A stretch of DNA of 64,000 bases, from contig NZ_JAGSHX010000006.1 of assembly GCF_018138715.1 (NCBI RefSeq), positions 4,898,001-4,962,000 of the forward strand, written 5' to 3'. The DNA comes from Streptomyces asiaticus (GTDB lineage: Bacteria; Actinomycetota; Actinomycetes; Streptomycetales; Streptomycetaceae). Shown here in pieces: positions 31,313 to 43,944 of this stretch. The first letter of the stretch is position 1. Every line of letters begins with the position of its first letter. The notes beneath the pieces were generated by a model. The model did not search any database, was not told the origin of the DNA, and saw nothing but the letters and a program-made list of their open reading frames with translations. Both the position numbers and the translations under genes were made by a program.

Positions 31313-31486
31313 CGGGAAGACGGCGGACGGGGCGCGGTAAGGACTGAGCGGAAGACGGCGGGGCGGGGGCCGTAAGGACTGAGCGGAAGACGGCGGGGCA
31401 CCGTAGAACGGCGGGCGGGCAACAAGCCCCGCCCGCCTGAGCCCCCCCGCACGAACGCGAACCGCTCCATACGGCCCAGGGACCCC

Positions 31487-31786
31487 CTACCGCCGATCGG
31501 CGAGAGCCCAGGACGCGAGGGCGACGCCACCGGCGACGGCGAAGACGGACGGCCAGGCCCCGATCTTCTTCGCCAGCGGATGCGACCCGGCGAACGCGGC
31601 GACGTACGCCGCACTGAGCGCGGCGGCGGTCCCGTTCCCCGCCTTCTCCCGCCACCCCCGAGCGGCCACCGCCCCCGCAGCCGCGAGGGCAACCCCACCC
31701 AAGGGCCGCCTCTTGGTCCACCGAGCCACCGAATACCCCCCAACCAACCCACCCGCAGCCACAACCCCCGCCGGCACTCCAGCCAT
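31487..31786 (-). CDS. Small conserved-looking membrane protein
   Basis: A 99-residue protein with three or four short hydrophobic segments rich in Ala, Gly and Val (GVVAAGGLVGGYSVA, LGGVALAAAGAVAARG, ALSAAYVAAFAG, SVFAVAGGVALASWAL). The ATG at 31786 (MAGVPAG) sits behind GGGAGG at a proper distance; two further in-frame starts lie just upstream. No catalytic motif is present. It is convergent with the aldo/keto reductase gene, and the gap between them contains a few copies of a GACTGAGCGGAAGACGGCGG repeat. Confidence 0.65.
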   Translation of the reverse strand: MAGVPAGVVAAGGLVGGYSVARWTKRRPLGGVALAAAGAVAARGWREKAGNGTAAALSAAYVAAFAGSHPLAKKIGAWPSVFAVAGGVALASWALADRR

Positions 31787-31860
31787 CCCCATACCTCCCA
31801 CGTGAAGGATCTCCTCGCCCCGACCCTACGCAGCAGACACGGGGAACCGTTGCCGGCCCG

Positions 31861-32169
31861 TCAGCCTTCCTCCACGAGCCCCGCATTCAAGGCCCGCATC
31901 CAGAGACGGTCCCGCCATTCATTGGCGTCCGGCTCGGGCTTGACGGTGATGACGGGGTTCGGACCCGTCTCGACGAGGTGCAGCAGCGTCCAGGCGACGC
32001 CATGGCAATCGTCCGGCCCAAAGCAGTCGGTCAGAGCCCTGGCCTCCTCGGCCGTGACCGGTCTCGGGATCGCATCAAGCTGCTCGACGCGCCTGTCGAT
32101 CTCTTCTCCACTCGCCCCCTCATCGGGAAGCGGCCCATCGGCAACGAATGCCCGCACCTCGGCTCTCAT
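31861..32169 (-). CDS. Hypothetical acidic protein
   Basis: A 102-residue acidic, soluble protein (MRAEVRAFVADGPLPDE...). It contains IDRRVEQLDAIPRPVTAEEA followed by RALTDCFGPDDC, then HGVAWTLLHLVETGPN and a C-terminal NEWRDRLWMRALNAG. Similar small proteins occur beside toxin or regulatory loci in Streptomyces and often act as immunity-like or accessory proteins, but I do not recognise a family. ATG 32169 follows GGGG; alternative GTG and TTG starts lie 8-12 codons upstream. Confidence 0.5.
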   Translation of the reverse strand: MRAEVRAFVADGPLPDEGASGEEIDRRVEQLDAIPRPVTAEEARALTDCFGPDDCHGVAWTLLHLVETGPNPVITVKPEPDANEWRDRLWMRALNAGLVEEG

Positions 32170-32271
32170 CCCCGAATGATCGTCCGCAGCCACTGCCGTG
32201 GGCAAGCGGCTTTGTTAGGGCAGCCAGATCGACGTACGAAGGAGACGGTCAGATCTTCGCGGAAACGGGCC

Positions 32272-32481
32272 TCAACCCAACTGCCCATCCCGCAAGGCCG
32301 TCACAAAGTCCGTCCACGCCCGGTGCGAGAACCCGATCACGAGCCCGCCCGGATCCTTGGAGTCCCGCACGACGGTCGAACCCGGACGGAAAGCAGCTTC
32401 GACACATTCGGTGTTGCCAGCACCGCTGTAGGAGGACTTGAACCAGCCACCGTCTCTGTCGGATATGCAGGGCTCGCGCAT
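32272..32481 (-). CDS. DUF397 domain-containing protein
   Basis: A 69-residue DUF397 protein with the family's hallmark WFKSSYSGAGNTECVEAAF, VVRDSKDPGG and the closing WTDFVTALRDGQLG. In Streptomyces these small proteins are partners of the HTH regulator encoded directly upstream, in pairs related to BldB/WhiJ-type and Scr1-type loci. The start ATG overlaps the stop of the regulator (ATGA at 32478-32481), showing translational coupling. Confidence 0.9.
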   Translation of the reverse strand: MREPCISDRDGGWFKSSYSGAGNTECVEAAFRPGSTVVRDSKDPGGLVIGFSHRAWTDFVTALRDGQLG

Positions 32482-33326
32482 CAGATCTCCTCACGGACGC
32501 GTTCGATGAGGGCGGAGGACGAGGCCATGTCCAGCGCCTGAGCGCGAAGGTAGTCGAACGCGACCCGGTAGCGCTCCAGTTCCTCGTCCTTCTCCATGAA
32601 GAGCGAGCCGACGTGGATGTCGACGTACACGACGTCCAGTGAGGGCTCGGCACCCCCGAGGATCACGAAGCTCCCCATGGCCGCTGAGTGCGCGCCCTTG
32701 GCGAACGGCAGCACCTGAAGCGTGATGTCAGGCGACTCGTTGGCGCGCAACAAGTGCCCCAGTTGCTCCCGCATCACCTCACGCGAACCGACCACGCGCC
32801 GGATCACGGACTCATCGAGGATGGCCCACAGGTGTGGTGGCTTCGGTCGGCCCAGAATCTCCTGCCGCTTCATCCGGAGGTCGACCAGCCGCTCGACCTC
32901 CTCCGCGGACAGCCTCATCTCCGACGCGTGTTGCACCGCTTCCGTATAGCCGCGAGTCTGCAGAAGCCCCGGCACGTACAGGCAGGCGAAGTGATCCTCC
33001 CGAGCCGCCTCGTCCTCCAACGTGAACAGCAGGTTCATGCTCTCCGGCAAGGAATCCGCGAAGGAGGTCCACCACCCCTGGCGCTTCGCGTCCTTGGCCA
33101 GGCCGACCACGGCCTTCCGCTCCGCCTCACTCGCTCCGTACTCACGGCACAACGCGTCCACGATGGGCCACTTCACAGGCCCTTCCTGCGTCTCGTACCG
33201 GCTGACGGTCGCCTTCGAAACCCCGACGAGGCGACCTGCCTCCTCCAGCGTCATCCCCTTACGGGCTCGGAGCTTGCGCATCATGACGCCGAGCTGTCGT
33301 CGACGAGTAGTGGCCCGCACCGGCAT
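32481..33326 (-). CDS. XRE-family regulator with DUF5753 domain
   Basis: A 281-residue protein of the WhiJ-like/Scr1 family. The N-terminal helix-turn-helix is RKGMTLEEAGRLVGVSKATV followed by SRYE (about residues 22-45). The remaining 200 residues form the DUF5753 sensor-like domain, with FACLYVPGLLQTRGYTEAV and ILDESVIRRVVGS as typical stretches and VDIHVGSLFMEKDEELERYR near the end. It forms an operon with the DUF397 gene. Such pairs are abundant in Streptomyces and modulate development or antibiotic production, often repressing until the partner relieves them. The divergent gene at 33550 shares its upstream region. Confidence 0.9.
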   Translation of the reverse strand: MPVRATTRRRQLGVMMRKLRARKGMTLEEAGRLVGVSKATVSRYETQEGPVKWPIVDALCREYGASEAERKAVVGLAKDAKRQGWWTSFADSLPESMNLLFTLEDEAAREDHFACLYVPGLLQTRGYTEAVQHASEMRLSAEEVERLVDLRMKRQEILGRPKPPHLWAILDESVIRRVVGSREVMREQLGHLLRANESPDITLQVLPFAKGAHSAAMGSFVILGGAEPSLDVVYVDIHVGSLFMEKDEELERYRVAFDYLRAQALDMASSSALIERVREEI

Positions 33327-33434
33327 GACGACTACCTCTTCCTTCTGAGCTGACCCGTGACGGAGATCAGCGACAACAAGGCTATGGGCGCCGGAAGTTG
33401 GCAGACCACCAGATTCACTCTTCCGAGATTCTGT

Positions 33435-33459
33435 GAGAAGTTACATGGCGAGACTTCTC
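33435..33459. promoter_or_regulatory. Inverted repeat GAGAAGT-N11-ACTTCTC
   Basis: Perfect 7-bp arms lie in the 223-bp gap between the divergent XRE gene and the RsbW-like gene, about 90 bp upstream of the latter. It could be an operator of the XRE/DUF397 pair. WhiJ-type regulators act on the divergent ATPase gene in similar arrangements, so the location is plausible. Confidence 0.4.
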
Positions 33460-33549
33460 GGTGCCATACTCGCACCAGCGAGGCTACGCAGCGCAGTCGT
33501 ACGGACACGGCTGGGTGCAGCGCTGACGTAGCGCCCAAGGAGTGTGGCC

Positions 33550-34194
33550 ATGTACCGCTTCTCAGTCACCGAACCCCACCCCCGCCGCTGCATCCTCCCT
33601 TTCGCCGCCGAGCCACCCCAACTGGCCGACCTTCGCCGAGCCGTCAAAGCCGAGCTCGTCGGCTGGGGGATGTCGGCGCTCACGGAAGAGGCCCAGCTGA
33701 TCACCACGGAACTGGCCTCGAATGTGATCAAACACGTCGGTCAGGGAACCGCGGCCACGCTCGTCCTCGACGCGGGCACTGATCAGCTACGTCTGGAACT
33801 GCACGACAACAGCCACAAGGAACCCCAGAGTTTCCACCCCACATGCGAGGAAGAGTCCGGCCGCGGCTTGCAACTCCTCGCCGCCCTGTCAGCCGCCTGG
33901 GGCACGACCCGCACGGTGGCCGGCAAGGCGGTCTGGTGCGAGCTGCCCCTGGCCCTGGACGAATCCCGCCGCCGCATCCAACGTGCGACAAAAGTGATGG
34001 AGGCTTACGGCCATGCGTTCGGCAGGCCGACCACGCGACTCACTCACCGTCCCGTCCTGGAAGAGTCGGCAACCAGTCTGATCCTGGACCTACTGCACTG
34101 GCTCACCGCGCACGGCCTCGACGCCGACGACATCCTCGACCGCGCCCAGACCCGTCATGAGGCTGCACGGAGCGACACACAGAGGGCCGGCTGA
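33550..34194 (+). CDS. RsbW-like ATP-binding protein (HATPase_c)
   Basis: A 214-residue protein with an anti-sigma-factor/histidine-kinase-like ATPase domain. The N-box is ITTELASNVIKHV, the G1 region is LELHDNSHKEP and the G2 region is ESGRGLQLLAALSAAWGT, followed by the usual GKAVWCELPL. A further 75-residue C-terminal helical region is outside the family core. AAGGAG at 33537-33542 fits ATG 33550 (MYRFSVTE). Proteins of this type are regularly found divergent from XRE/DUF397 pairs in Streptomyces and may regulate sigma factors. No sigma gene is adjacent. Confidence 0.85.
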   Translation: MYRFSVTEPHPRRCILPFAAEPPQLADLRRAVKAELVGWGMSALTEEAQLITTELASNVIKHVGQGTAATLVLDAGTDQLRLELHDNSHKEPQSFHPTCEEESGRGLQLLAALSAAWGTTRTVAGKAVWCELPLALDESRRRIQRATKVMEAYGHAFGRPTTRLTHRPVLEESATSLILDLLHWLTAHGLDADDILDRAQTRHEAARSDTQRAG

Positions 34195-34302
34195 GCGCGA
34201 CGTTCCACGATCCAAAGAGGGGCGGCGACGACATTCCGTGACCCGTCTAGCGGGCTCCCGGGCTGACCACCCGTGACGCTAGGACTTGCCTGTGCCGGCG
34301 TA

Positions 34303-35124
34303 TCAGTCGGCGGCGGCTCGAAGCATCGCGCCGGCATCGTCAGCCATGCCGTACTCATAGAGTTCTAGGGCCGCGCGGATGACTAGCTTCTCCGGTTTGT
34401 CGCGTCCGTAGATCTGTATCAGCGTGTCCGCGAGTTCATCGTGCCGCTTCTGCCGGAGCAGGGCGAGGGATGCGGCACTCTCAGGAGGGGACAAGACCTC
34501 GGCGGACTCCAGCACCATGGCAAGCGCCGCCTCGACGTCACCCCGTTCCTTCAGCTTCTCGGCCATGGCGGCGATCTGTGTGGCGGCAGCCACTCCGCTT
34601 GCTCTCTGCTGCCGGTCCCCTTGCGTGGAGGGGACCGGCAGGTGCGCCACTCGCTCCTGGGCGGCAATGAGCCGTCTCTCTAAGCCGGCCTTCGTCCGCC
34701 GGAGTTCCCGGACCTCATGCTGCAAACCGTGGTTCGTGCGGCGAAGCTCCGGACATGTCTTGCAGCGCCACGACTCCGCGGCTGCACGCGCGGCAAGAGC
34801 CTCCTCGCGGGTGATGCCGACTGCCTCCTCACTTCCTGCCTGTTCAACGGCAGCGGCGTGGAGGTGGGTGATGAAACCTTCCGGCGGTAGGCGGTCTCCG
34901 TTGACATAACGGGAGATTACGCCCGGACTCGTTTTGAATCCACGGTGCTCAAGATGCCTGGCGCACGCCGCCAGCGTCGGCTGACCCACGTGCTCGTACA
35001 AGGTCCGCAGGAGCTCGGCAAGCCTGCGCCTCCCCGGCGGCAGCTCGTCGCTGATCTTGGAACCAACTCGTTTCCTGGCCACTCGGTAACGGCACCTCTT
35101 CTCTCGCCGGTCCGCCTGATTCAT
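34303..35124 (-). CDS. HTH-type Streptomyces regulator (XRE-like)
   Basis: A protein of about 273 residues. The N-terminal part resembles an XRE-like domain with LAACARHLEHRGFKTSPGVI followed by SRYVNGDRLPPEGF (about residues 50-85), the pattern of actinobacterial regulators that sense cell state. A central cysteine motif (WRCKTCPELRR) and a coiled coil (LRRTNHGLQHEVRELRRTKA) follow, and the C-terminus has helical repeats (LADTLIQIYGRD, ALELYEYGMADDAGAMLR). ATG 35124 has no clear ribosome-binding site; GTG 35082 behind AGAGAAGAGG (VARKRVGSK) is an alternative. It is divergent from the defence-like cluster and could control it. Confidence 0.65.
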   Translation of the reverse strand: MNQADRREKRCRYRVARKRVGSKISDELPPGRRRLAELLRTLYEHVGQPTLAACARHLEHRGFKTSPGVISRYVNGDRLPPEGFITHLHAAAVEQAGSEEAVGITREEALAARAAAESWRCKTCPELRRTNHGLQHEVRELRRTKAGLERRLIAAQERVAHLPVPSTQGDRQQRASGVAAATQIAAMAEKLKERGDVEAALAMVLESAEVLSPPESAASLALLRQKRHDELADTLIQIYGRDKPEKLVIRAALELYEYGMADDAGAMLRAAAD

Positions 35125-35293
35125 TGTGCAGCACTGGAGTTTGACGCGTTTTCGCGCAACATCGATTTGCTCTGGACGTCCGCTCGCCAACGGTGCTCAA
35201 TGGTGTGACCGCCGGAGATCGGGGCGGAACGCCGTGTATGTCGTGTCCATGGCGTTTCTTTGGCGTGCCGTATGGCTGAATTGGAGACAGAGG

Positions 35294-35986
35294 ATGGCGA
35301 CGTTGCCGTCGTGGCAGGACGGGAAGTTCGGAGGCAAGATCCGCGCGGCCCTGTGGCTGGAGACAGAGGTGGGGGAAGGCAATATCTTCACGAAGGCGCA
35401 GTTGCGGCAGGCTTTCCCGGACGTAGCACAGATTGACCGGCGGCTGCGGGACCTCCGCGACCACGGCTGGCGGATCGACACGAGCCGCGACGACCCTGCC
35501 TTGAAGCAGGAGGAGCAGCGGTACGTCAGCAAGGGAGCGGAAGTCTGGATTCCGGGGCAGTCGAAGATTGCCAAGCACAAGAACAGCCTCACGGCAACGC
35601 AGCGCATCAAGGTGTGGCAGGAGGACAACTTCCTCTGCCGTACGTGTGGCATCGGCATGGGTGAGTCGTACGGCGACGGCATTGAGCTGTCGAAGTTGAA
35701 TGTGGCTCGCCGAAACGTGCTGTTGCCGGACGGGACAGTAGAAGTCCAGATGGTCACCGAGTGCAAGCGGTGTGGTAACGGTTCTGGGGAACGTCAGGCG
35801 GACCTTGGCGAGGTCCTGCGTACGGTCCAGGCTCTGGCCCCGCTTGAGCGCAAGGTTTTCGCGGGCTGGATCGAGGCTGATCGTCGGACGCTTAGTCCAC
35901 TTGAGAAGTTGTGGGGGGTCTTCCGGACGCTGCCGGCGGAATCACGTGAGGCCGTCAAGCAGGCTGTGGACGGCGAGAGCAACTAA
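35294..35986 (+). CDS. Winged-helix plus double-CxxC zinc protein, HNH-like without catalytic His
   Basis: A 230-residue protein and the first gene of the cluster. The N-terminal 90 residues (FTKAQLRQAFPDVAQIDRRL, RDHGWRIDTSRDD) look like a winged helix. The C-terminal half has CRTC (Cys115, Cys118) and CKRC (Cys157, Cys160) around a beta-rich insert, as in HNH nucleases. However, the insert holds no histidine and no Asp-His pair, so nuclease activity is doubtful and a zinc-finger DNA-binding role is equally possible. ATG 35294 follows GAGACAGAGG. It is 17 bp upstream of the ParB-like gene in a tight operon. The family is not otherwise recognised. Confidence 0.7.
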   Translation: MATLPSWQDGKFGGKIRAALWLETEVGEGNIFTKAQLRQAFPDVAQIDRRLRDLRDHGWRIDTSRDDPALKQEEQRYVSKGAEVWIPGQSKIAKHKNSLTATQRIKVWQEDNFLCRTCGIGMGESYGDGIELSKLNVARRNVLLPDGTVEVQMVTECKRCGNGSGERQADLGEVLRTVQALAPLERKVFAGWIEADRRTLSPLEKLWGVFRTLPAESREAVKQAVDGESN

Positions 35987-36003
35987 GAAAGGGGAGGGAA
36001 GCA

Positions 36004-37425
36004 GTGCTGCGAGAGTTCGGGGCGCCGCCCCGTGCGGCGGAGTTCAGTGAGCTGGTCAAGAAGAGGCTGGAGGAGGTCAGGAACTCAGGGGGTACCCGGG
36101 AGACGGTCACCGTCGACTGGAACGGGCAGCCGCTGCACGTGGAGGTCGTTGACCTCCCGCTTGCCGGGCTGTACTTCAACCCAGGTACCCATCGAATCCG
36201 GGCCCAACGCAGTCACGATGCCGCGCGGGACGAGGCGCTCGACAAGGACCCGTGGAGTGCTGAGAGTCAGGAGTACTTGACGTTTCTGCTGAAGTCAGAG
36301 CCGGCGAACCCGAGTCGCAGGGATCCGGACTTCGACAAGCTTACGGACAGCCTGAAGCAGTTCGGCCAGAACGACCCTGGCCTTATCACCCACCAGGGAA
36401 TCCTGGTGAACGGCAACACGCGCGCTGCCGCGCTCCGGGAGAACGGTGCCCAGTCGATGCGGGTGGGAGTGCTGCCCGAGTCGTTCACTTGGGCAGACAT
36501 CAACGCGGTGGAGCTTTCTCTACAGTTGCGCAAGGATCACCGCCGTGAATACTCCTACATCAATCGCTTGCTGGCAATGGAGGAGCAGGCTGCGCTGGGG
36601 CGGACTCCGGAGGCCATCGCAAAGGAATTCCGGATCAAAGCGTCTACGTATCACCAGGAGCGCTGGATCCTCAGTACTATCCTGGACATGATCGAGCGCA
36701 GCCGGAGTGGCGGCGGGGTAGCCCTGCGTCTCGTGGACTTCGAGGATCACCAGGAGAAGCTGAAGGAGCTTCACCGCGCCTACGAGAAGCTTGCTGCTAG
36801 TGATCCGGACCAGGCCGAAGTGCTCAAGGAAGTGCGGATGGCCGCGATCATGCTCGGATTCGCCAAGACCGATGTGCGTCATGTCGAGGAGGACTTCCAG
36901 GATCGGTACCTCGGTCCTAGGATGCCGGCGAGCCTGAGCTCAGTAGCCGTCGAAGAGGAGGCGGTGGCTGTTCCGGGGCTAGGTGTCTCAGTTCCAGGCG
37001 CGTCGATAACTGTCTCGGCAGCCCGTGCACTCAATGATCACGTACTGCGGGCCAAGGCAGCCGCGCTAAGCACCGATCCTCAGGTGCCCGACAGTGAGAA
37101 GAGCAACGCACAAGTTGTCTTCGACGACGCCCGTAAAGCCTTTGACGTAGCGCTCGAGGCCGCGGGCCGCGACGCCCGGCTCCGCAAGCGCAAGCAGATG
37201 GCGCCGGCACGCCTCGCTGATGCCTGTGCCGATATTGATCTGTGCGTGGTGGATCTCGTCCAGGCTCGTGCCTCGCGCTCCCTTGACGAGGAGGCCTTCG
37301 ACGAGGCTGTGTTGAAACTGCGCGAGAGTCTCCGCAAGCTGGCCCAGCAGGCAGGTCGCGGTATGCCGCACCCCGGCGACGGCGTCTCCTGGCTCATCGA
37401 TGCCGCGGCTGCGGAGGCCTCCTGA
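36004..37425 (+). CDS. ParB-like (sulfiredoxin-fold) DNA-associated protein
   Basis: A 473-residue protein starting at GTG 36004 behind AGGGGAGGG. The N-terminal half resembles a ParB/Srx-like domain: DFDKLTDSLKQFGQNDPGLI, then GILVNGNTRAAALRENG (NGNTR at 136-140, the position of the ParB GERR or DndB DGQHR motif). It is followed by an HTH-like LGRTPEAIAKEFRIKASTYH. The C-terminal 200 residues are helical and charged, with no known domain. ParB-like proteins of this type occur in modification and defence operons (DndB, DpdB) as regulators or DNA-scanning proteins. Its stop overlaps the helicase start (TGATG at 37423-37427), indicating coupled synthesis. Confidence 0.75.
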   Translation: MLREFGAPPRAAEFSELVKKRLEEVRNSGGTRETVTVDWNGQPLHVEVVDLPLAGLYFNPGTHRIRAQRSHDAARDEALDKDPWSAESQEYLTFLLKSEPANPSRRDPDFDKLTDSLKQFGQNDPGLITHQGILVNGNTRAAALRENGAQSMRVGVLPESFTWADINAVELSLQLRKDHRREYSYINRLLAMEEQAALGRTPEAIAKEFRIKASTYHQERWILSTILDMIERSRSGGGVALRLVDFEDHQEKLKELHRAYEKLAASDPDQAEVLKEVRMAAIMLGFAKTDVRHVEEDFQDRYLGPRMPASLSSVAVEEEAVAVPGLGVSVPGASITVSAARALNDHVLRAKAAALSTDPQVPDSEKSNAQVVFDDARKAFDVALEAAGRDARLRKRKQMAPARLADACADIDLCVVDLVQARASRSLDEEAFDEAVLKLRESLRKLAQQAGRGMPHPGDGVSWLIDAAAAEAS

Positions 37426-39257
37426 TGGCGGAGGCCTCGGCCGGGACTTCGTTGCACCTTGGGTTTGATGAGACGCGGACCAAGGTTGTGCTGAGGACTA
37501 CCGAGCAGTACCGGCAGGACCTTGTCCAGCTGGCCGCCCGTTTCCGTTCGGGCGGCCAGCTTGGCCCGTTGACCGCCTCGGTGCAACTCGACGATCTTCT
37601 GGGGAAGCTGAACGCGATAAGCACCTGGCCCCACCCCGTTGGCGTGGAGTGGGCCCCGGACCTCCAGTCGCTGGTGGTGGGGATCCTTCAGGACGCGGAG
37701 ACGGTCAAGAAGCGGCTTGACACCCCTGACCACGTCGGCGAAGTCGATCCTGACGATGTTCTCGGCCTCCTCGGCGCTGAGTGGGACGCTGAGCTGGGCG
37801 AGTTCCAGCGGCGGGACATCGCCAAGTTGCTGTCCCTTCAGCACGGGGCCAACTTCAGCGTTCCAGGTGCCGGCAAGACACGCGTGGCTCTGGCGGTCTA
37901 CGCCGCGCAGCGGGCCCAGGGCAAGGTGAGCAGGGTCCTGGTCGTCTGTCCCAAGTCCGCTTATGAATCCTGGCAGTACGAGACTGCTGTGTGCTTCCGC
38001 CATCCACTCCGCACGCACGTCCTCGACCGGTCTCTCGACCAGTGGGCGGAGGTGCTGATCGTCAACTATGAACGGCTGGATCGTTCGCTCTCGACCCTTG
38101 CCGGATGGCTGAAGTCAGCCCCTGCAATGATCATCCTTGACGAGGCCCATCGGATGAAGCTCGGCTCACGAGGCACCTATGGAGCAGCCTGCATGGCGCT
38201 GGGCCCTCTCTCACAGAGGCGGCTCATCCTTACGGGTACCCCCGCTCCCAACGGATCCAAGGACCTGGAGAACCTGCTGGGCTTTGTCTGGCCGGGCCAC
38301 GGTCAGCGCTCTGTATCGAACGCGGTGGCCGGCGGAGACCTCGCCTACGCCAGCACGGTGCTGCGGCCGCTGTTCACTCGGACAACTAAGCAGGAGCTTG
38401 GGCTGCCGCCGATGGAACTGCGGATGAGGTACGTGGACATGCCTGAACTCCACAGCGAGATCTATAGCTCGCTGGTCGGGGGCATAGCCGCGGGGGACGC
38501 TCGCGAGGACCTCAGCTCCCTCGGCAAGACCGCATTGAGGCTGCTGATGGCGGCGACGAGTCCGGCCCTGCTCCTTGAGGGCGCTACCCGTTACGAGCCC
38601 CTGGCTTACCAGTTGCCGCCTCTGGAGATCCCGGCGGGCGGTTCCCTGTACGCGCTCATGCAGAACCTCCCGGACTACGAGCTCTCGCCCAAGTACAAGG
38701 AAGCCCTGGCGATCGTCGCGGAGAATGCCGAGCGTGGCCGGAAGACCCTGGTCTGGACGACGTTCGTTCGGAGTCTCACCACATTGGCGCAACTCCTGGA
38801 GAAGTACAGCCCCGCGGTTGTCTATGGCGGGACCCCTGATCGTGAGGAACAACTCCGGCGCTTCCGTGAGGATCCCGGGTGTCAGGTGCTGATCTCCAAC
38901 CCGGCGACGCTGGGTGAGGGCATCAGCCTTCACCATGTGTGCCACGACGCCGTATACGTGGACCGTGACTTCATCGCAGGACGGTTCCTGCAGAGCCTGG
39001 ACCGTATCCACCGCCTTGGCCTTGCTCCCGGCACCGACACCAGGGTCACTGTGCTCGCGGTGCGGAACACGATTGACGAGGTGGTCGAGGCACGGCTCAA
39101 TCTGAAGTTGGAGTTCATGGGCAAGATCCTGGATGATCCATCGGTGCAGCAACTCTCTGACTTGCAGGAGGAGCCTTCGGTTGCGGCAGGGCTCGCGCCC
39201 AGCGATGTGGAGGCCCTGATCCGCCACATCGGTAGAAACGGAACTCTTCGCCAGTAG
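37425..39257 (+). CDS. SNF2-type DEAD/DEAH helicase (DNA translocase)
   Basis: A 610-residue superfamily 2 helicase of the SNF2 type. After a 120-residue N-terminal region it has FQRRDIAKLL (Q-like), Walker A VPGAGKTR (147-152 for PGAGKT), motif Ia VLVVCPKSAYESW, motif II IILDEAHRMK (DEAH 239-242) and motif III LILTGTPAPN. The second lobe has TLVWTTFVRSL, ISNPATLGEGISLHH and motif VI FLQSLDRIHRLG. It uses ATP to move on double-stranded DNA rather than to unwind it. It has no nuclease domain of its own. It is translationally coupled to the ParB-like gene and followed by the methyltransferase gene 91 bp later. Confidence 0.88.
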   Translation: MAEASAGTSLHLGFDETRTKVVLRTTEQYRQDLVQLAARFRSGGQLGPLTASVQLDDLLGKLNAISTWPHPVGVEWAPDLQSLVVGILQDAETVKKRLDTPDHVGEVDPDDVLGLLGAEWDAELGEFQRRDIAKLLSLQHGANFSVPGAGKTRVALAVYAAQRAQGKVSRVLVVCPKSAYESWQYETAVCFRHPLRTHVLDRSLDQWAEVLIVNYERLDRSLSTLAGWLKSAPAMIILDEAHRMKLGSRGTYGAACMALGPLSQRRLILTGTPAPNGSKDLENLLGFVWPGHGQRSVSNAVAGGDLAYASTVLRPLFTRTTKQELGLPPMELRMRYVDMPELHSEIYSSLVGGIAAGDAREDLSSLGKTALRLLMAATSPALLLEGATRYEPLAYQLPPLEIPAGGSLYALMQNLPDYELSPKYKEALAIVAENAERGRKTLVWTTFVRSLTTLAQLLEKYSPAVVYGGTPDREEQLRRFREDPGCQVLISNPATLGEGISLHHVCHDAVYVDRDFIAGRFLQSLDRIHRLGLAPGTDTRVTVLAVRNTIDEVVEARLNLKLEFMGKILDDPSVQQLSDLQEEPSVAAGLAPSDVEALIRHIGRNGTLRQ

Positions 39258-39347
39258 ACGGATGCTGTGGGTCACCTGATCCGTTAGCGTCTACGCTGTC
39301 CCCTGGTAACGTAGCAACTTTGCGTGTCTCAGCCAGGAGGACCGTTC

Positions 39348-40706
39348 ATGGGCGCCAGCCCCCCACACAGTCCGCAGGACAGCCCGCCTCTTACCTCAGT
39401 CGAAATCTGCGCGGGGGCTGGTGGCCAGGCCGTTGGGCTGCACAAGGCGGGCTTTGAACATCGGGCTCTCGTCGAGTGGGATTCGCATGCGGTGGAGACC
39501 CTCAAGGCCAACGTGAGGAATTGGCCTTGGTGGGATTCGGGAAAGGCCCAAGAGCTCAAATCTCAGGACGTCAACGATTTCCTTGAATCTGATCAGCATA
39601 AGGGTCTCGAACTTGGAAATGAGCGCCTTTCTCTCCTTGCCGGCGGTGTTCCGTGCCCTCCGTTCTCGCTAGCCGGGAAACGCCTTGGTGAAGATGACGA
39701 GCGTGACCTTTTCCCGGCAATGCTCAAGATCGTCAAGGAGCTTCGGCCGAAAGCGGTAATGATTGAAAACGTGCGTGGCATTCTCGAGCCTCCGCATGTT
39801 TTCATTGATTATCGTCGGCGGATTTTGGCACAGCTGGGGAGTTTGGGATATCTCGTTCCCGAGATTGATCCGGATTGGCCTGTTGAGCGACAAGATAAGG
39901 TCATGAGGTCTGTCTGGCGACTGCTTGAGGCTCGTGACTTTGGCGTTCCTCAGCTGCGGCCGCGGGCCATCCTGGTGGTCATTCATGAAGATGTTGCGAA
40001 TGCTGGAGATTTTGTCTGGCCTAAGAGGGTGAGAGGTGATGTTGCCTCGGTCAGAAAGATTCTCCATGACAGCATGCTTCGGCGGTGCAAAGAATTCTGG
40101 GATAAGAATTACCAGGGCAAGCGCGCGCGAGGTAAGCAGCGTTCAGGGCGTCAGGTTTTTAATACTTGGCTGGAACTGGCTGAGAAGGCTGAGGCGAATT
40201 CCACTGAGGGTATCGCACCCACTCTCGTGGGAGGTTCGAGAAAGCATGGCGGTGCGGATCTGGGGCCCACTAGGGCAAAGCGGGCGTGGGCGGCCATGGG
40301 GGTTGACGCCACAGGAGTGGCCAATAACCCTGAGGATTGTGATCCGGAGCGTGATTTGTTCCGCCCTGCGGGCCCGATGCTGACTGTCCAGCAAGCTGCG
40401 ATGCTTCAGGGTTTCCCGGAGGACTGGCAGTTCCAGGGAGGGAAGACGGCGCGGTATAGGCAGGTCGGGAATGCTTTCCCGCCGCCCGTCGCAGAAGCTG
40501 TGGGCCGTGCCATTGCGGCCGTTTTGCGCCCGGAAGAGCGGGAAACGTTGCTCAAAGAATATGTAATGGAAGATGCAGGGGATTCCGCTAGGCAAGACTC
40601 AGTTTCCTACCAAGTGGAGGCGTTCCCCGTCTCAGCCCTTACCGTTGGCCCCCGTCGCCCGGCGGGCGATGACTGTAGCGGCGATCTTGTCGGCGCACGT
40701 CTCTGA
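39348..40706 (+). CDS. DNA (cytosine-5) methyltransferase
   Basis: A 452-residue C5 methyltransferase. Motif I is VEICAGAGGQAVG (18-30), the catalytic PC motif IV is GGVPCPPFSLAG with Cys103, and motif VI MIENVRG (ENV 140-142). The QLRPRAILVV region corresponds to VIII, a variable target-recognition region follows, and X is RQVGNAFPPPVAEAVG. ATG 39348 follows AGGAGG. The codons and base composition are visibly more AT-rich than in neighbours (e.g. TTT, GAT, AAG-rich stretches between 39500 and 40550), a sign of transfer. The last 25 residues are encoded antisense to the end of vsr. It modifies an unknown target sequence. Confidence 0.92.
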   Translation: MGASPPHSPQDSPPLTSVEICAGAGGQAVGLHKAGFEHRALVEWDSHAVETLKANVRNWPWWDSGKAQELKSQDVNDFLESDQHKGLELGNERLSLLAGGVPCPPFSLAGKRLGEDDERDLFPAMLKIVKELRPKAVMIENVRGILEPPHVFIDYRRRILAQLGSLGYLVPEIDPDWPVERQDKVMRSVWRLLEARDFGVPQLRPRAILVVIHEDVANAGDFVWPKRVRGDVASVRKILHDSMLRRCKEFWDKNYQGKRARGKQRSGRQVFNTWLELAEKAEANSTEGIAPTLVGGSRKHGGADLGPTRAKRAWAAMGVDATGVANNPEDCDPERDLFRPAGPMLTVQQAAMLQGFPEDWQFQGGKTARYRQVGNAFPPPVAEAVGRAIAAVLRPEERETLLKEYVMEDAGDSARQDSVSYQVEAFPVSALTVGPRRPAGDDCSGDLVGARL

Positions 40707-41099
40707 CAGTTCGTGTTCCCAGAACCGGAGAACGACCCACCCCGCCTCGGCGAGGTTCTTGTCGGTGTCACGGTCACGTGCGATGTTGCCCGCGACCTTC
40801 TCTGTCCAGTAGCCGGGATTGGTTTTCGGGGAAACGTAATGTTCGGGGCAGCCGTGCCAGTAGCAGCCGTCGATGAATACGGCGACTCGTACCGGTCGGA
40901 AGACGATGTCGGCCGTCCGGCGCAAGTGGGCCAGTGGACGTGCGGCTACTCGGTATCTGAACCCCTGAGCGTGGAGCAGTTGGCGGATCACGCGTTCAGG
41001 CTTGGTGTCACGCGCTTTGATCGCCTGCATGTTCCGGCGCCGCGCTGCGGAGGAAGCCCACGAACCCGGCGGTGGCACCCATTGCTCAGAGTCGGACAT
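40632..41099 (-). CDS. vsr: Very short patch repair endonuclease (Vsr)
   Basis: A 155-residue Vsr family nuclease. Family motifs are visible: RRRNMQAIKARDTKPERVIR, the metal-binding Asp in TADIVF, FIDGCYWHGCPEHY, KTNPGYWTEKVAGNIARD and VLRFWEHEL. Vsr nicks next to the T of T:G mismatches produced by deamination of 5-methylcytosine and accompanies C5 methyltransferases. Here it overlaps the methyltransferase gene by 75 bp tail to tail (40632-40706) instead of following it as in E. coli dcm-vsr. It has its own promoter region (41100-41170). It may be a repair enzyme or the cleaving enzyme of the cluster. Confidence 0.92.
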   Translation of the reverse strand: MSDSEQWVPPPGSWASSAARRRNMQAIKARDTKPERVIRQLLHAQGFRYRVAARPLAHLRRTADIVFRPVRVAVFIDGCYWHGCPEHYVSPKTNPGYWTEKVAGNIARDRDTDKNLAEAGWVVLRFWEHELSETCADKIAATVIARRATGANGKG

Positions 41100-41171
41100 G
41101 GAACCAGCTTCGCAGAGGCGGCGTGATCGATGCGAGTGTGGGCCGCGTCTATGCAAGGTGTGCAGAACTGC

Positions 41172-41198
41172 GCCCTCCTACCGAGGTGGTAGGAGGGC
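41172..41198. terminator. Hairpin terminator between L,D-transpeptidase and vsr
   Basis: A perfect 11-bp stem GCCCTCCTACC / GGTAGGAGGGC (41172-41182, 41188-41198) lies 21 bp after the stop of the minus-strand L,D-transpeptidase gene. It also forms the right boundary of the accessory cluster. Confidence 0.85.
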
Positions 41199-41218
41199 AC
41201 ACAGCTATGTGGGCAGGC

Positions 41219-42409
41219 TCAGCGCAGGGCGCTGAGCTTTTGCCAGGACGGGTAGGAGAGGTTCCAGTCGCCGAAGCCGTTGCCGGTGGAGACCGTGGCG
41301 CGGGTGGAGCCGGATATCTCGACGATGTCGCCTCGGGTGGCGCGGTTGTAGAACCACTTGCCGTCGGCGAGGGACATGCCGACGCAGCCGTGGCTCTGGT
41401 TGGTCTGGCCGAAGTAGCCGAGGCCCTCGTTCCAAGGGGCGGCGTGGGCGTAGGTGCCCGAGGTGGTGAGGTGGACGGCCCAGGGTACGTCCTTGTTGTA
41501 GGGGTCGGCTATGCCGACGGACTCGCTGGTCATGTTGACCATGGGGGCCTTGTCGAGGACGACCATGGTGCCGTTCCAGGTGGGGTAGGAGGGCTGGCCG
41601 GCGGATATGGGGATGGTCTTCTGCTTCTGGCCGTCCTCGTAGACGGTCATCGTGTGGTTCTTGATGTCGACCTTGGAGATCCGGGGCGTGCCGATGGTGA
41701 AGGTGGTCGAGACATCGCGGCGGAGGTAGCGGGAGTCACCGGTGTTCACGCCGCTGAGGCGGGCGCGGAGGGTGACCTTGGTGCCCTTGTGCCAGTAGGT
41801 CTTGGGGCGCCAGTCGACGCGCTCGATGCCGGTGAGGGGGTCCTTGACCCAGCCCCAGGAGCCCTCGACCTTCGGGCTGGTGGAGATGGAGAGGCTGCGT
41901 TCCACCGCTGCCTTGTCGGTGACGGGGTGGTCGAAGGCCAGGGAGACCGGCTGGCCCACGCCGACGGTGGCGCTCTTGGACGGGGTGACCGTGACGCCGT
42001 TGACCTGCTGGGCGGAGCGGGTGCGGAAGGTGGAGTGCTGGACGGCGGTCTTACCGGCGGCGTTGATGGCCGTGGCCTCGACGGTGTAGGTCGTGCCCGG
42101 GGTCATGGTGCGGTCGGAGCGCCAGCTGGTCTTGGAGTGGGAGAGGGCGCCGGTCACCGTGACGGCCTGGGAACCGGCGCCGTCGGGGGCGATGCGGACC
42201 TTGGTGAGGGTGCCGTGGGAGGCGGTCACCTTGACCGGGGCGTCGGGGGCTATCGCCTCCGAGTCGCTGCCCGGGGTGATGGTGATCCGGGCGGGCTTGG
42301 CGTCGGCCGGATCCACCGAGGCGGATTTCGACGCCGACTGGCATCCGGCGAGCAGGGCGACGGCGATGGCGGGCACCGTGAGGGTGCGCAGGGAACGTAC
42401 GGAGAGCAC
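41219..42409 (-). CDS. L,D-transpeptidase lipoprotein (Ig-like/YkuD)
   Basis: A 396-residue lipoprotein starting at GTG 42409 with lipobox LLAGC within the first 25 residues. Two Ig-like domains (residues about 40-240) precede the YkuD catalytic domain: the His in GTYAHAAPWNEG and SHGCVGMS with Cys at 342, fitting the H-x(14-17)-[ST]HGC consensus. It makes 3-3 cross-links in peptidoglycan outside the membrane and is architecturally like mycobacterial LdtMt2. The sigma factor and partner gene upstream lie on the same strand, 50 bp away, and may control it. Confidence 0.92.
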   Translation of the reverse strand: MLSVRSLRTLTVPAIAVALLAGCQSASKSASVDPADAKPARITITPGSDSEAIAPDAPVKVTASHGTLTKVRIAPDGAGSQAVTVTGALSHSKTSWRSDRTMTPGTTYTVEATAINAAGKTAVQHSTFRTRSAQQVNGVTVTPSKSATVGVGQPVSLAFDHPVTDKAAVERSLSISTSPKVEGSWGWVKDPLTGIERVDWRPKTYWHKGTKVTLRARLSGVNTGDSRYLRRDVSTTFTIGTPRISKVDIKNHTMTVYEDGQKQKTIPISAGQPSYPTWNGTMVVLDKAPMVNMTSESVGIADPYNKDVPWAVHLTTSGTYAHAAPWNEGLGYFGQTNQSHGCVGMSLADGKWFYNRATRGDIVEISGSTRATVSTGNGFGDWNLSYPSWQKLSALR

Positions 42410-42459
42410 GGAGGACCTCTTGCGGGAGTCGTGAGCGGTGGTGGGAGGGGAGAAGCGGG

Positions 42460-43299
42460 TCAGCAACGCCTCTTCACCTCCTCGGGGTTGGCCCGGTACG
42501 GGCCGGGGGAGGCGGTGGCGGTGGGATCGAGGCGCCACAGCGAGACCGATATGCAGTAGGCGGAGGGGCCGTCGGTGTAGTCGCCGGACGGGCTGCCGAT
42601 GCCCTGGGCCTGGAGAACCCCGACCCGGGTGCCCGAGCGCATCAGGACGACCTGGGCGTCATGCGGTGCGCGGGGCGAGTGCCAGCCGTAGGTCATGGTG
42701 GTCGGCCGGCCGGCCGCGAGGTTGGGGGACGAGGTGGTGCCCAGCGCCTTGGAGAGGGCGCATCGGTCCTTCAGGGTCTCCTCGAGGGAGGCGAAGACCT
42801 TCGCGGCCTCGCCGTCGCTCGCATAGGCGTTGATGGTGTGGCGTGCCTGCTCCGCCTTGCGGCCCTGATAGTCGCGGGTGCGCTGGGCGAGGGGGCGCGG
42901 ACCGTCGAGGCGGCAGCTGGGGGAGAGGTCGAGCAGCGGTGCCCGGCCGTCGTCGGCGGAGCTGGCGGAGTCGGCCGTCTTCCAACGCGTCATCGCGTCG
43001 AACGGCAGCGCCGAGGGGCGAAGGAGGGCGCTCGCGGGGATCGGCGCCCCCGGGACGCGGTCCGTTCGCGGGGCGGGCGGTGCCGCCGGGAGCGTACGGG
43101 TGGAGTCGTCGCCCGGCAGCAGCCGCCACGAGCCCGCGGTCACGGCGGCCACCGCCAGGACGGCCGCGGCGGCGATCGTGACGCGCTGCCGTGCGCGGCG
43201 CCGACGGCCCCGCGAACGCACGGCTTCCGGGCCCGCCAGACGTATGGAGGGCTCGACATCGCGAGCGATATCGCGCAGGCGCTCGTCCAGATCAGCCAT
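42460..43299 (-). CDS. Membrane protein overlapping the ECF sigma gene, probable anti-sigma-like partner
   Basis: A 279-residue protein, MADLDERLRDIARDVEPSIR at the start, with an arginine-rich region, one membrane helix (about residues 40-58, VTIAAAAVLAVAAVTAGSW) and an extracytoplasmic domain of 220 residues ending in a cysteine (EEVKRRC), with two further cysteines (SPSCRL, KDRCALS) for possible disulfides. The start overlaps the sigma factor stop by 8 bp, so they are translated together. That position, with a cytoplasmic N-terminus and one helix, is typical of anti-sigma factors, although no zinc HxxxCxxC motif is seen. The outer domain is of unknown type. Confidence 0.7.
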   Translation of the reverse strand: MADLDERLRDIARDVEPSIRLAGPEAVRSRGRRRRARQRVTIAAAAVLAVAAVTAGSWRLLPGDDSTRTLPAAPPAPRTDRVPGAPIPASALLRPSALPFDAMTRWKTADSASSADDGRAPLLDLSPSCRLDGPRPLAQRTRDYQGRKAEQARHTINAYASDGEAAKVFASLEETLKDRCALSKALGTTSSPNLAAGRPTTMTYGWHSPRAPHDAQVVLMRSGTRVGVLQAQGIGSPSGDYTDGPSAYCISVSLWRLDPTATASPGPYRANPEEVKRRC

Positions 43300-43879
43300 G
43301 GGAGGGCACCTCCTTGGGGTGGCAGACGGGCGGGTGGGGAGGCGGTGCCGGCATCGGTGTCGGTGCCTCGCTGTCGGCATCCGCTTCGGGGTCGGCGAGA
43401 TGGGAGCCGAGGGCCTTGCGAGCACGGCTCAGCCGGGTGCGCACGGCGCCGGGGGAGACGCCCGTCTCCTGGGCCACCTGCTCAATGGGCAGATCGAGAA
43501 GGTGGTGCAGGACCACGGCCGTACGCTGCTCGGGCTTCAGCCCGCGCAGGGCATGGACCAGCGCCACCCGGTCCGGGGCGAGATCGGGGAGATCGGGGGG
43601 TGGGCCATGGCGGAAGTGGGCCCGCATGCGGTTACGGGCGCGGCGCCAGGAGCTGACGGCGAGGCGCAGGGCGACGGTGCGCACCCACGGTGTGGGATCA
43701 CCCTCGGCGGTCAGCCGGTCCCAGCGCTGCCACGCCCGGGCATACGCCTCCTGCACCGCGTCCTCGGCCTCGGCGAGATCGCCCGTCGCCGCGTAGACCG
43801 CGGCCACGAGCCGCTTCGCCGTAGCCGTATAGAACTGGTCGAAATCGGATGGTGTGGATGAAGGTGATGGTCCTGACAT
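43292..43879 (-). CDS. ECF RNA polymerase sigma factor (SigE-family-like)
   Basis: A 195-residue sigma-70 factor. Region 2 is FDQFYTATAKRLVAAVYAAT followed by DAVQEAYARAWQRWDRL, and region 4 is GLKPEQRTAVVLHHLLDLPI followed by EQVAQETGVSPGAVRTRLSR, a complete helix-turn-helix. Length and motifs fit the actinobacterial SigE-family ECF group. A proline-rich tail of about 30 residues follows region 4. It is co-translated with the membrane protein downstream and the L,D-transpeptidase follows, so a cell-envelope stress role is a reasonable inference. ATG 43879. Confidence 0.9.
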   Translation of the reverse strand: MSGPSPSSTPSDFDQFYTATAKRLVAAVYAATGDLAEAEDAVQEAYARAWQRWDRLTAEGDPTPWVRTVALRLAVSSWRRARNRMRAHFRHGPPPDLPDLAPDRVALVHALRGLKPEQRTAVVLHHLLDLPIEQVAQETGVSPGAVRTRLSRARKALGSHLADPEADADSEAPTPMPAPPPHPPVCHPKEVPSHG

Positions 43880-43944
43880 GAATCCCCCGCGCCCCCGCGT
43901 GCTCCCCGCTTCTATGTAGGAACACGTCCGAAAGGGGCGGGAGG

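Follow-up and report, generated by a model that had tools for sequence, protein, structure and literature searches.

This report concerns a gene cluster in a 64,000-nucleotide stretch of the Streptomyces asiaticus genome (contig NZ_JAGSHX010000006.1, positions 4,898,001 to 4,962,000), hereafter the window. The cluster encodes a zinc protein that we call X, a ParB-like protein, a SNF2-family ATPase, a C5-cytosine methyltransferase and a Vsr-type endonuclease (Table 1), and all five genes had been called at these same positions in an initial annotation made from the DNA letters. The X gene ends 17 bp before the ParB gene, which is joined to the SNF2 gene by a TGATG overlap. The methyltransferase and vsr genes are convergent with 3' ends that overlap by 75 bp (40632-40706), and several relatives show a similar arrangement. 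The closest named relatives of the module's proteins come from S. asiaticus and S. malaysiensis.

Table 1. Features of the module and its surroundings (window coordinates; HTH, helix-turn-helix)
Feature	Position	Strand	Remarks
X subunit ("zinc protein"): winged-helix-like part and Cys4 HNH-derived domain, catalytic His lost	35294..35986	+	
ParB-like protein: ParB N-domain, HTH region, long C-terminal helices	36004..37425	+	
SNF2-family ATPase/translocase	37425..39257	+	GAGKT and DEAH motifs (by eye)
C5-cytosine methyltransferase	39324..40706	+	PC, ENV and QxRxR motifs intact (by eye)
Methyltransferase recognition-region motif VGGSRKHGGADLGPTRAK	40227..40280	+	pattern match in 96/102 loci
Vsr-type endonuclease	40632..41099	-	TIGR00632 match
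HTH-type gene, divergent from the operon	34303..35190	-	start codon uncertain; HTH call by eye and from relatives
Genomic-island insert with the module, between aldo/keto-reductase and PrsW-type genes	31313..43944	n/a	

The five genes make up one conserved module with a sporadic distribution. A search with the ParB protein found relatives in 18 of 101 genomes of the genus (the window's genome is one of the 18) and in 6 of 148 genomes of the class, and an independent SNF2 search (E 1e-60) returned the same 18 genus genomes at places adjacent to the ParB genes. One of these 18 (G030, locus L035) holds a distant version that we refer to as the alpha type. The two ParB searches gave 22 loci, all of them with SNF2, 21 with X and a methyltransferase of the window type and 20 with Vsr. 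A scan of named genomes yielded 222 candidate relatives, and in the best 80 of these 222, to which all counts for named loci refer, the five genes occur together without exception (80/80). By record title 12 genera are represented: Streptomyces, Kitasatospora, Actinacidiphila, Streptacidiphilus, Amycolatopsis, Saccharopolyspora, Saccharothrix, Lentzea, Labedaea, Nocardia, Microbispora and Herbidospora. One record titled as a Clostridia bacterium metagenome-assembled genome (L110) holds the actinobacterial module with a ParB identity of 57% and may be a misbinned contig. The initial annotation had let its reading depend on homologues being found together in other genomes, and they clearly are. 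The simplest alternative is a solitary methyltransferase-Vsr pair beside unrelated passenger genes. These two proteins are indeed looser partners than the other three are of one another, as described below, but the presence of all five genes in every named locus, in orders and orientations that differ from locus to locus, refutes this idea as far as co-occurrence is concerned, and we regard it as highly improbable.

Pairwise-distance matrices were correlated across 49 loci from which all five full open reading frames had been recovered and near-duplicates dropped. ParB and SNF2 distances correlate at r 0.95, X with either of them at r 0.80, the methyltransferase with this trio at r 0.51-0.58 and Vsr with the trio at r 0.19-0.38, the lowest of the components. 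Because the correlations are highest within the trio, X, ParB and SNF2 travel as a unit, and the modification and repair genes beside this constant core are more exchangeable. An alternative to a defence function is that the trio is dedicated to helping very-short-patch repair where T:G mismatches have arisen at methylated sites, and that SNF2 remodels the DNA around Vsr nicks. The methyltransferase and Vsr almost always accompany the trio (Vsr is found in 94 of the 96 non-redundant loci), and excerpts of PMC12907096 describe the use of a helicase in Vsr repair. However, co-inheritance with the trio is weaker for Vsr than for any other component, and together with the observations on distant systems given below this leads us to consider the helper role unlikely.

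The N-terminal part of X is conserved and winged-helix-like, two pairs of cysteines (CxxC...CxxC) are conserved as well, and the AlphaFold model of the protein has a predicted local distance difference test score of 90.7. Full-length X paralogues lie directly between two methyltransferase genes in five loci (L094, L104, L107, L108 and L116) and between the SNF2 and methyltransferase genes in a sixth (L025). Five of these six paralogues (L025, L104, L107, L108 and L116), which lie beside a methyltransferase of the window enzyme's family, read GHVNPH or GHVSPH and so keep the first His of an HNH-like motif, the exception being L094 with GRVSPH; all six keep the second His as well as the Asn that follows CxRC, and the L107 paralogue gives weak Pfam HNH matches that fall below the cut-offs. 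When X is aligned to the paralogues, Arg or another residue replaces the first His in 91/91 locus copies, and Arg occupies this position in 120/120 among the matches listed from 519 database relatives. Two paralogues that lie away from a methyltransferase (L047/L018 and L097) likewise have no His. Because the His is lost relative to the paralogues, X derives from an HNH nuclease and is unable to use that active site; judged by these residues, it is a relative of winged-helix-turn-helix-HNH restriction enzymes that has parted with its cutting residue. The suggestion in the initial annotation that the zinc protein might cut is not supported by these counts.

The methyltransferase matches Pfam DNA_methylase (1.5e-55) with its catalytic motifs intact, and in the actinobacterial loci it carries an unusually constant recognition segment, VGGS-KHGGADLGP-R-K. 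This pattern was found in 96 of 102 loci and in none of 12 control loci, and the six misses are four variants of the segment, one contig that ends inside the gene (L066) and the alpha-type locus L035. The same methyltransferase family accompanies relatives of NaeI in 20 of 96 loci (the L113 copy matches 1ev7, E 5e-90) and relatives of NgoMIV in 3 of 96 (the L115 copy matches 1fiu, E 7e-37). NaeI and NgoMIV both cut GCCGGC. Since the recognition segment is common to the NaeI and NgoMIV partners, the window methyltransferase is predicted to modify GCCGGC and X is predicted to read it; counts of GCCGGC in the DNA at hand leaned neither for nor against this site. Identity of the recognition region to that of the window is 13-29% in four distant loci and 44-62% in twelve actinobacterial loci, and the region differs where the X family differs.

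The ParB-like protein has the ParB N-domain and HTH of the ParB/KorB/Noc fold family and gave no match in a PADLOC scan. Its closest solved folds are those of the CTP-binding segregation proteins ParB, KorB and Noc, which are clamps. The SNF2 protein matches Pfam SNF2-rel_dom (4.1e-18) and Helicase_C (3.3e-6), its PDB relatives are Snf2/Rad54, and it matches DrmD, DpdE, ZorD and similar PADLOC models in the helicase region only. The kinship of these two proteins with DndB and DpdE that had been proposed from the sequence is thus superficial. The Vsr protein belongs to its family by TIGR00632 (7.5e-39, 132.7 bits against a curated cut-off of 97.85), aligns to 1cw0 (E 1.5e-17) and may be both a T:G repair enzyme and the effector nuclease of the window variant. 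That the ParB protein is itself the cutter there seems improbable, with Vsr as the likelier candidate; it would account for loci that have no other nuclease, although the clamp-like relatives listed above argue against it. Nicking activity in ParB/Srx-fold proteins is reported in excerpts of PMC12839542 and PMC5512222.

Distant ParB-SNF2 pairs occur in Rhizobium, Mesorhizobium, Azospirillum, Kozakia and, in the window's genus, L035. The protein that precedes them, alpha-type X, belongs to the PADLOC REase_II family PDLC03501. On a Rhizobium plasmid a full enzyme of this family overlaps a methyltransferase gene, near a vsr gene, and scores 2e-137 against PDLC03501, compared with 2.8e-19 for the neighbouring alpha-type X. 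Where the full enzyme has E-L-K, alpha-type X has I-Q-K (5/5), and the 120 relatives among the matches listed (of 410) comprise 112 with IQK and 8 with VQK, none with E-x-K. From this residue pattern E-L-K is presumably the catalytic motif of the full enzyme, and on that reading the acidic member of E-x-K is gone from the alpha X family. Two further proteins resemble restriction enzymes. In the Streptococcus prophage Javan191 the first protein, which is kept on related contigs, matches BanI and DpnII models, and on a Lactiplantibacillus plasmid the protein after SNF2 matches Pfam MutH and the C-terminal half (273-526 of 527) of PDLC03553; we take the latter to be of the Sau3AI type, whose C-terminal half is inactive.

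A DUF3883 nuclease gene follows SNF2 in 16 of the 96 census loci, on four alphaproteobacterial plasmids, in Paracoccus, in the streptococcal prophage and on six proviral contigs. It is the nuclease added by most of the distant ParB-SNF2 systems (Alphaproteobacteria and the streptococcal prophage group), its GYD...E-x-K motif is retained in 22/22 aligned proteins, and the DUF3883/NOV_C-bearing layout is probably the older one. Other partners were also observed. On a Lactiplantibacillus plantarum plasmid (L125, 5512-8100) the SNF2 protein carries an N-terminal phospholipase-D (PLD)-like nuclease domain (Pfam PLDc_2; PADLOC PbeA-like), possibly as a substitute for DUF3883. On a contig labelled Listeria phage (L128, 3-4471) ParB-SNF2 directly follows the C-terminal part of a type III-like endonuclease-domain protein (Pfam RE_endonuc), which suggests that further combinations exist. 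On a Paracoccus denitrificans plasmid (L126, 6140-11956) ParB-SNF2-DUF3883 lies beside an N4/N6 methyltransferase in place of the C5 enzyme, and the searches used detected no Vsr or X; the ParB-SNF2 engine is therefore not tied to 5-methylcytosine (5mC).

In 55 of the 96 loci no other labelled nuclease lies nearby. A repair helper could account for this number, as could a non-cutting guard in which the trio covers or silences incoming unmethylated DNA in the manner of ParB spreading and nucleases are optional. The clamp fold of ParB would suit such a guard, and no fused nuclease domain was found in the window's SNF2 protein; however, in different phyla the operon position is repeatedly taken by a DUF3883 protein that retains its motif, and we consider the guard quite improbable. 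The same DUF3883 genes, placed after SNF2 in many loci, count against the repair helper, as do the sporadic occurrence and the island, plasmid and prophage locations of the systems and the Paracoccus engine, for which 5mC deamination is not at issue.

We favor, at roughly even odds (about 0.5), a model in which the module is an ATP-dependent defence system akin to restriction-modification, with a ParB-SNF2 engine that is guided to unmethylated sites by a dead restriction enzyme. The methyltransferase would mark the host's own sites, predicted to be GCCGGC. X, with its cutting residues lost and its DNA binding presumably kept, would bind unmethylated copies of the site on incoming DNA and hand the DNA to the constant engine, in which the ParB-like protein may load as a clamp and the SNF2 ATPase would move along the DNA. 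Attack would then fall to the nuclease of each variant: DUF3883/NOV_C in the probably older layout, the PLD-type domain fused to the ATPase on the one Lactiplantibacillus plasmid and, in the window variant, most likely Vsr or else the ParB protein itself, both candidate rather than proven cutters. Vsr may in addition repair T:G mismatches that arise by 5mC deamination. A likeness to restriction-modification had been suggested in the initial annotation, and the features of the module support it. At slightly less than even odds, we propose that the module represents a widespread, undescribed class of ATP-dependent restriction. In this class the restriction enzyme that belongs with the methyltransferase would have given rise to a catalytically dead copy that directs the constant ParB-SNF2 engine. 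Such copies would have been taken up independently from at least two, probably four, restriction-enzyme families, and the nuclease (DUF3883, PLD or Vsr) would be swappable. There is a real chance that this dead-reader architecture is a new class.

In searches of openly licensed literature we found no description of this gene combination, and the module differs from the systems it most resembles. It has the cognate DNA methyltransferase of a type II restriction-modification system; no cognate endonuclease with an intact active site was recognised in the locus, and in the rest of the genome the search for such a partner covered three families. NaeI and NgoMIV systems have the methyltransferase recognition segment in common with the module, but the window locus holds no such enzyme and the trio is extra. 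When eight proteins were scanned against PADLOC, the DrmA, DrmB and DrmC of DISARM were not found, the only matches being the DrmD helicase region and the DrmMII methylase; nor was there a match to DpdA or DndCDE of Dpd and Dnd, to PglZ or BrxC/PglY of BREX, where similarity to BrxH covers the SNF2 helicase region only, or to the ZorA/ZorB pair of Zorya, where similarity to ZorD is again confined to the helicase region. DISARM, Dpd and Zorya thus resemble the module in their SNF2-family motor (DrmD, DpdE, ZorD) but not in their other hallmark components. DISARM class 2 also has a 5mC methyltransferase. E. coli dcm-vsr likewise pairs a 5mC methyltransferase with Vsr, but has neither the trio nor its X subunit and acts at a different site. 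The dcm site is CCWGG according to excerpts of PMC12907096. The same excerpts describe Caulobacter ScmA-VsrA, with 5mC at YGCCGGCR, the ScmA site, and a Vsr-like nuclease, VsrA, that damages DNA and harms the cells if YGCCGGCR is unmethylated; here ScmA is likened to the module's enzyme by description rather than by sequence, the two genes are unlinked, and the word "ParB" is absent from the main text of that paper. Closest in working are CglI and NgoAVII, which, in excerpts of PMC4267653, combine a methyltransferase with separate R and ATPase proteins and need the separate ATPase for cutting. The module is built of other parts, and the N-protein ATPase and R-protein of these systems were not found in it. 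On these comparisons the claim holds that the cluster is not BREX, DISARM, Dnd or Dpd, nor a plain dcm-vsr pair.

If our model is correct, restriction enzymes have repeatedly become aiming devices that lost cutting and kept DNA reading while a common motor does the rest, an architecture between type II and type I restriction that would give ParB-like proteins a role in restriction. It would also account in part for the survival of methyltransferase-Vsr pairs that lack an obvious restriction enzyme, and ParB-SNF2 systems, present in 18/101 genomes sampled from the genus, may limit DNA transfer in antibiotic producers.

The module is mobile, as its island, plasmid and provirus sites indicate. 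In the window it occupies part of an insert of about 12.6 kb that is flanked by an aldo/keto-reductase gene on one side and PrsW/TrmB genes on the other, and in 12/12 relatives the bordering genes occur together without module or insert genes (the aldo/keto reductase was found in 10/12). Relatives were also found on contigs of proviral type and on plasmids, one from Streptomyces and others from Alphaproteobacteria and Lactiplantibacillus. On a Streptomyces albidoflavus plasmid (L120, 6995-12008) ParB-SNF2-DUF3883 is followed by a DDE transposase gene just downstream; the zinc protein was not detected at this locus, which is possibly a degraded copy.

The divergent HTH gene is a sixth member of the module. 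Its relatives (one BLAST cluster) occur in 76 of the 96 non-redundant loci, and in 61 of 67 placed cases they adjoin the zinc-protein gene on the opposite strand, the remaining six being over-long reading-frame calls that overlap it. A Pfam search with this gene gave no significant match, and it probably encodes the controller of the module, a role we infer. Just upstream of the module lie genes for a DUF5753 XRE regulator and a HATPase-type protein (32481-34194), whose relatives are near the module in 41 and 32 of 103 loci, respectively; both are perhaps part of the mobile island.
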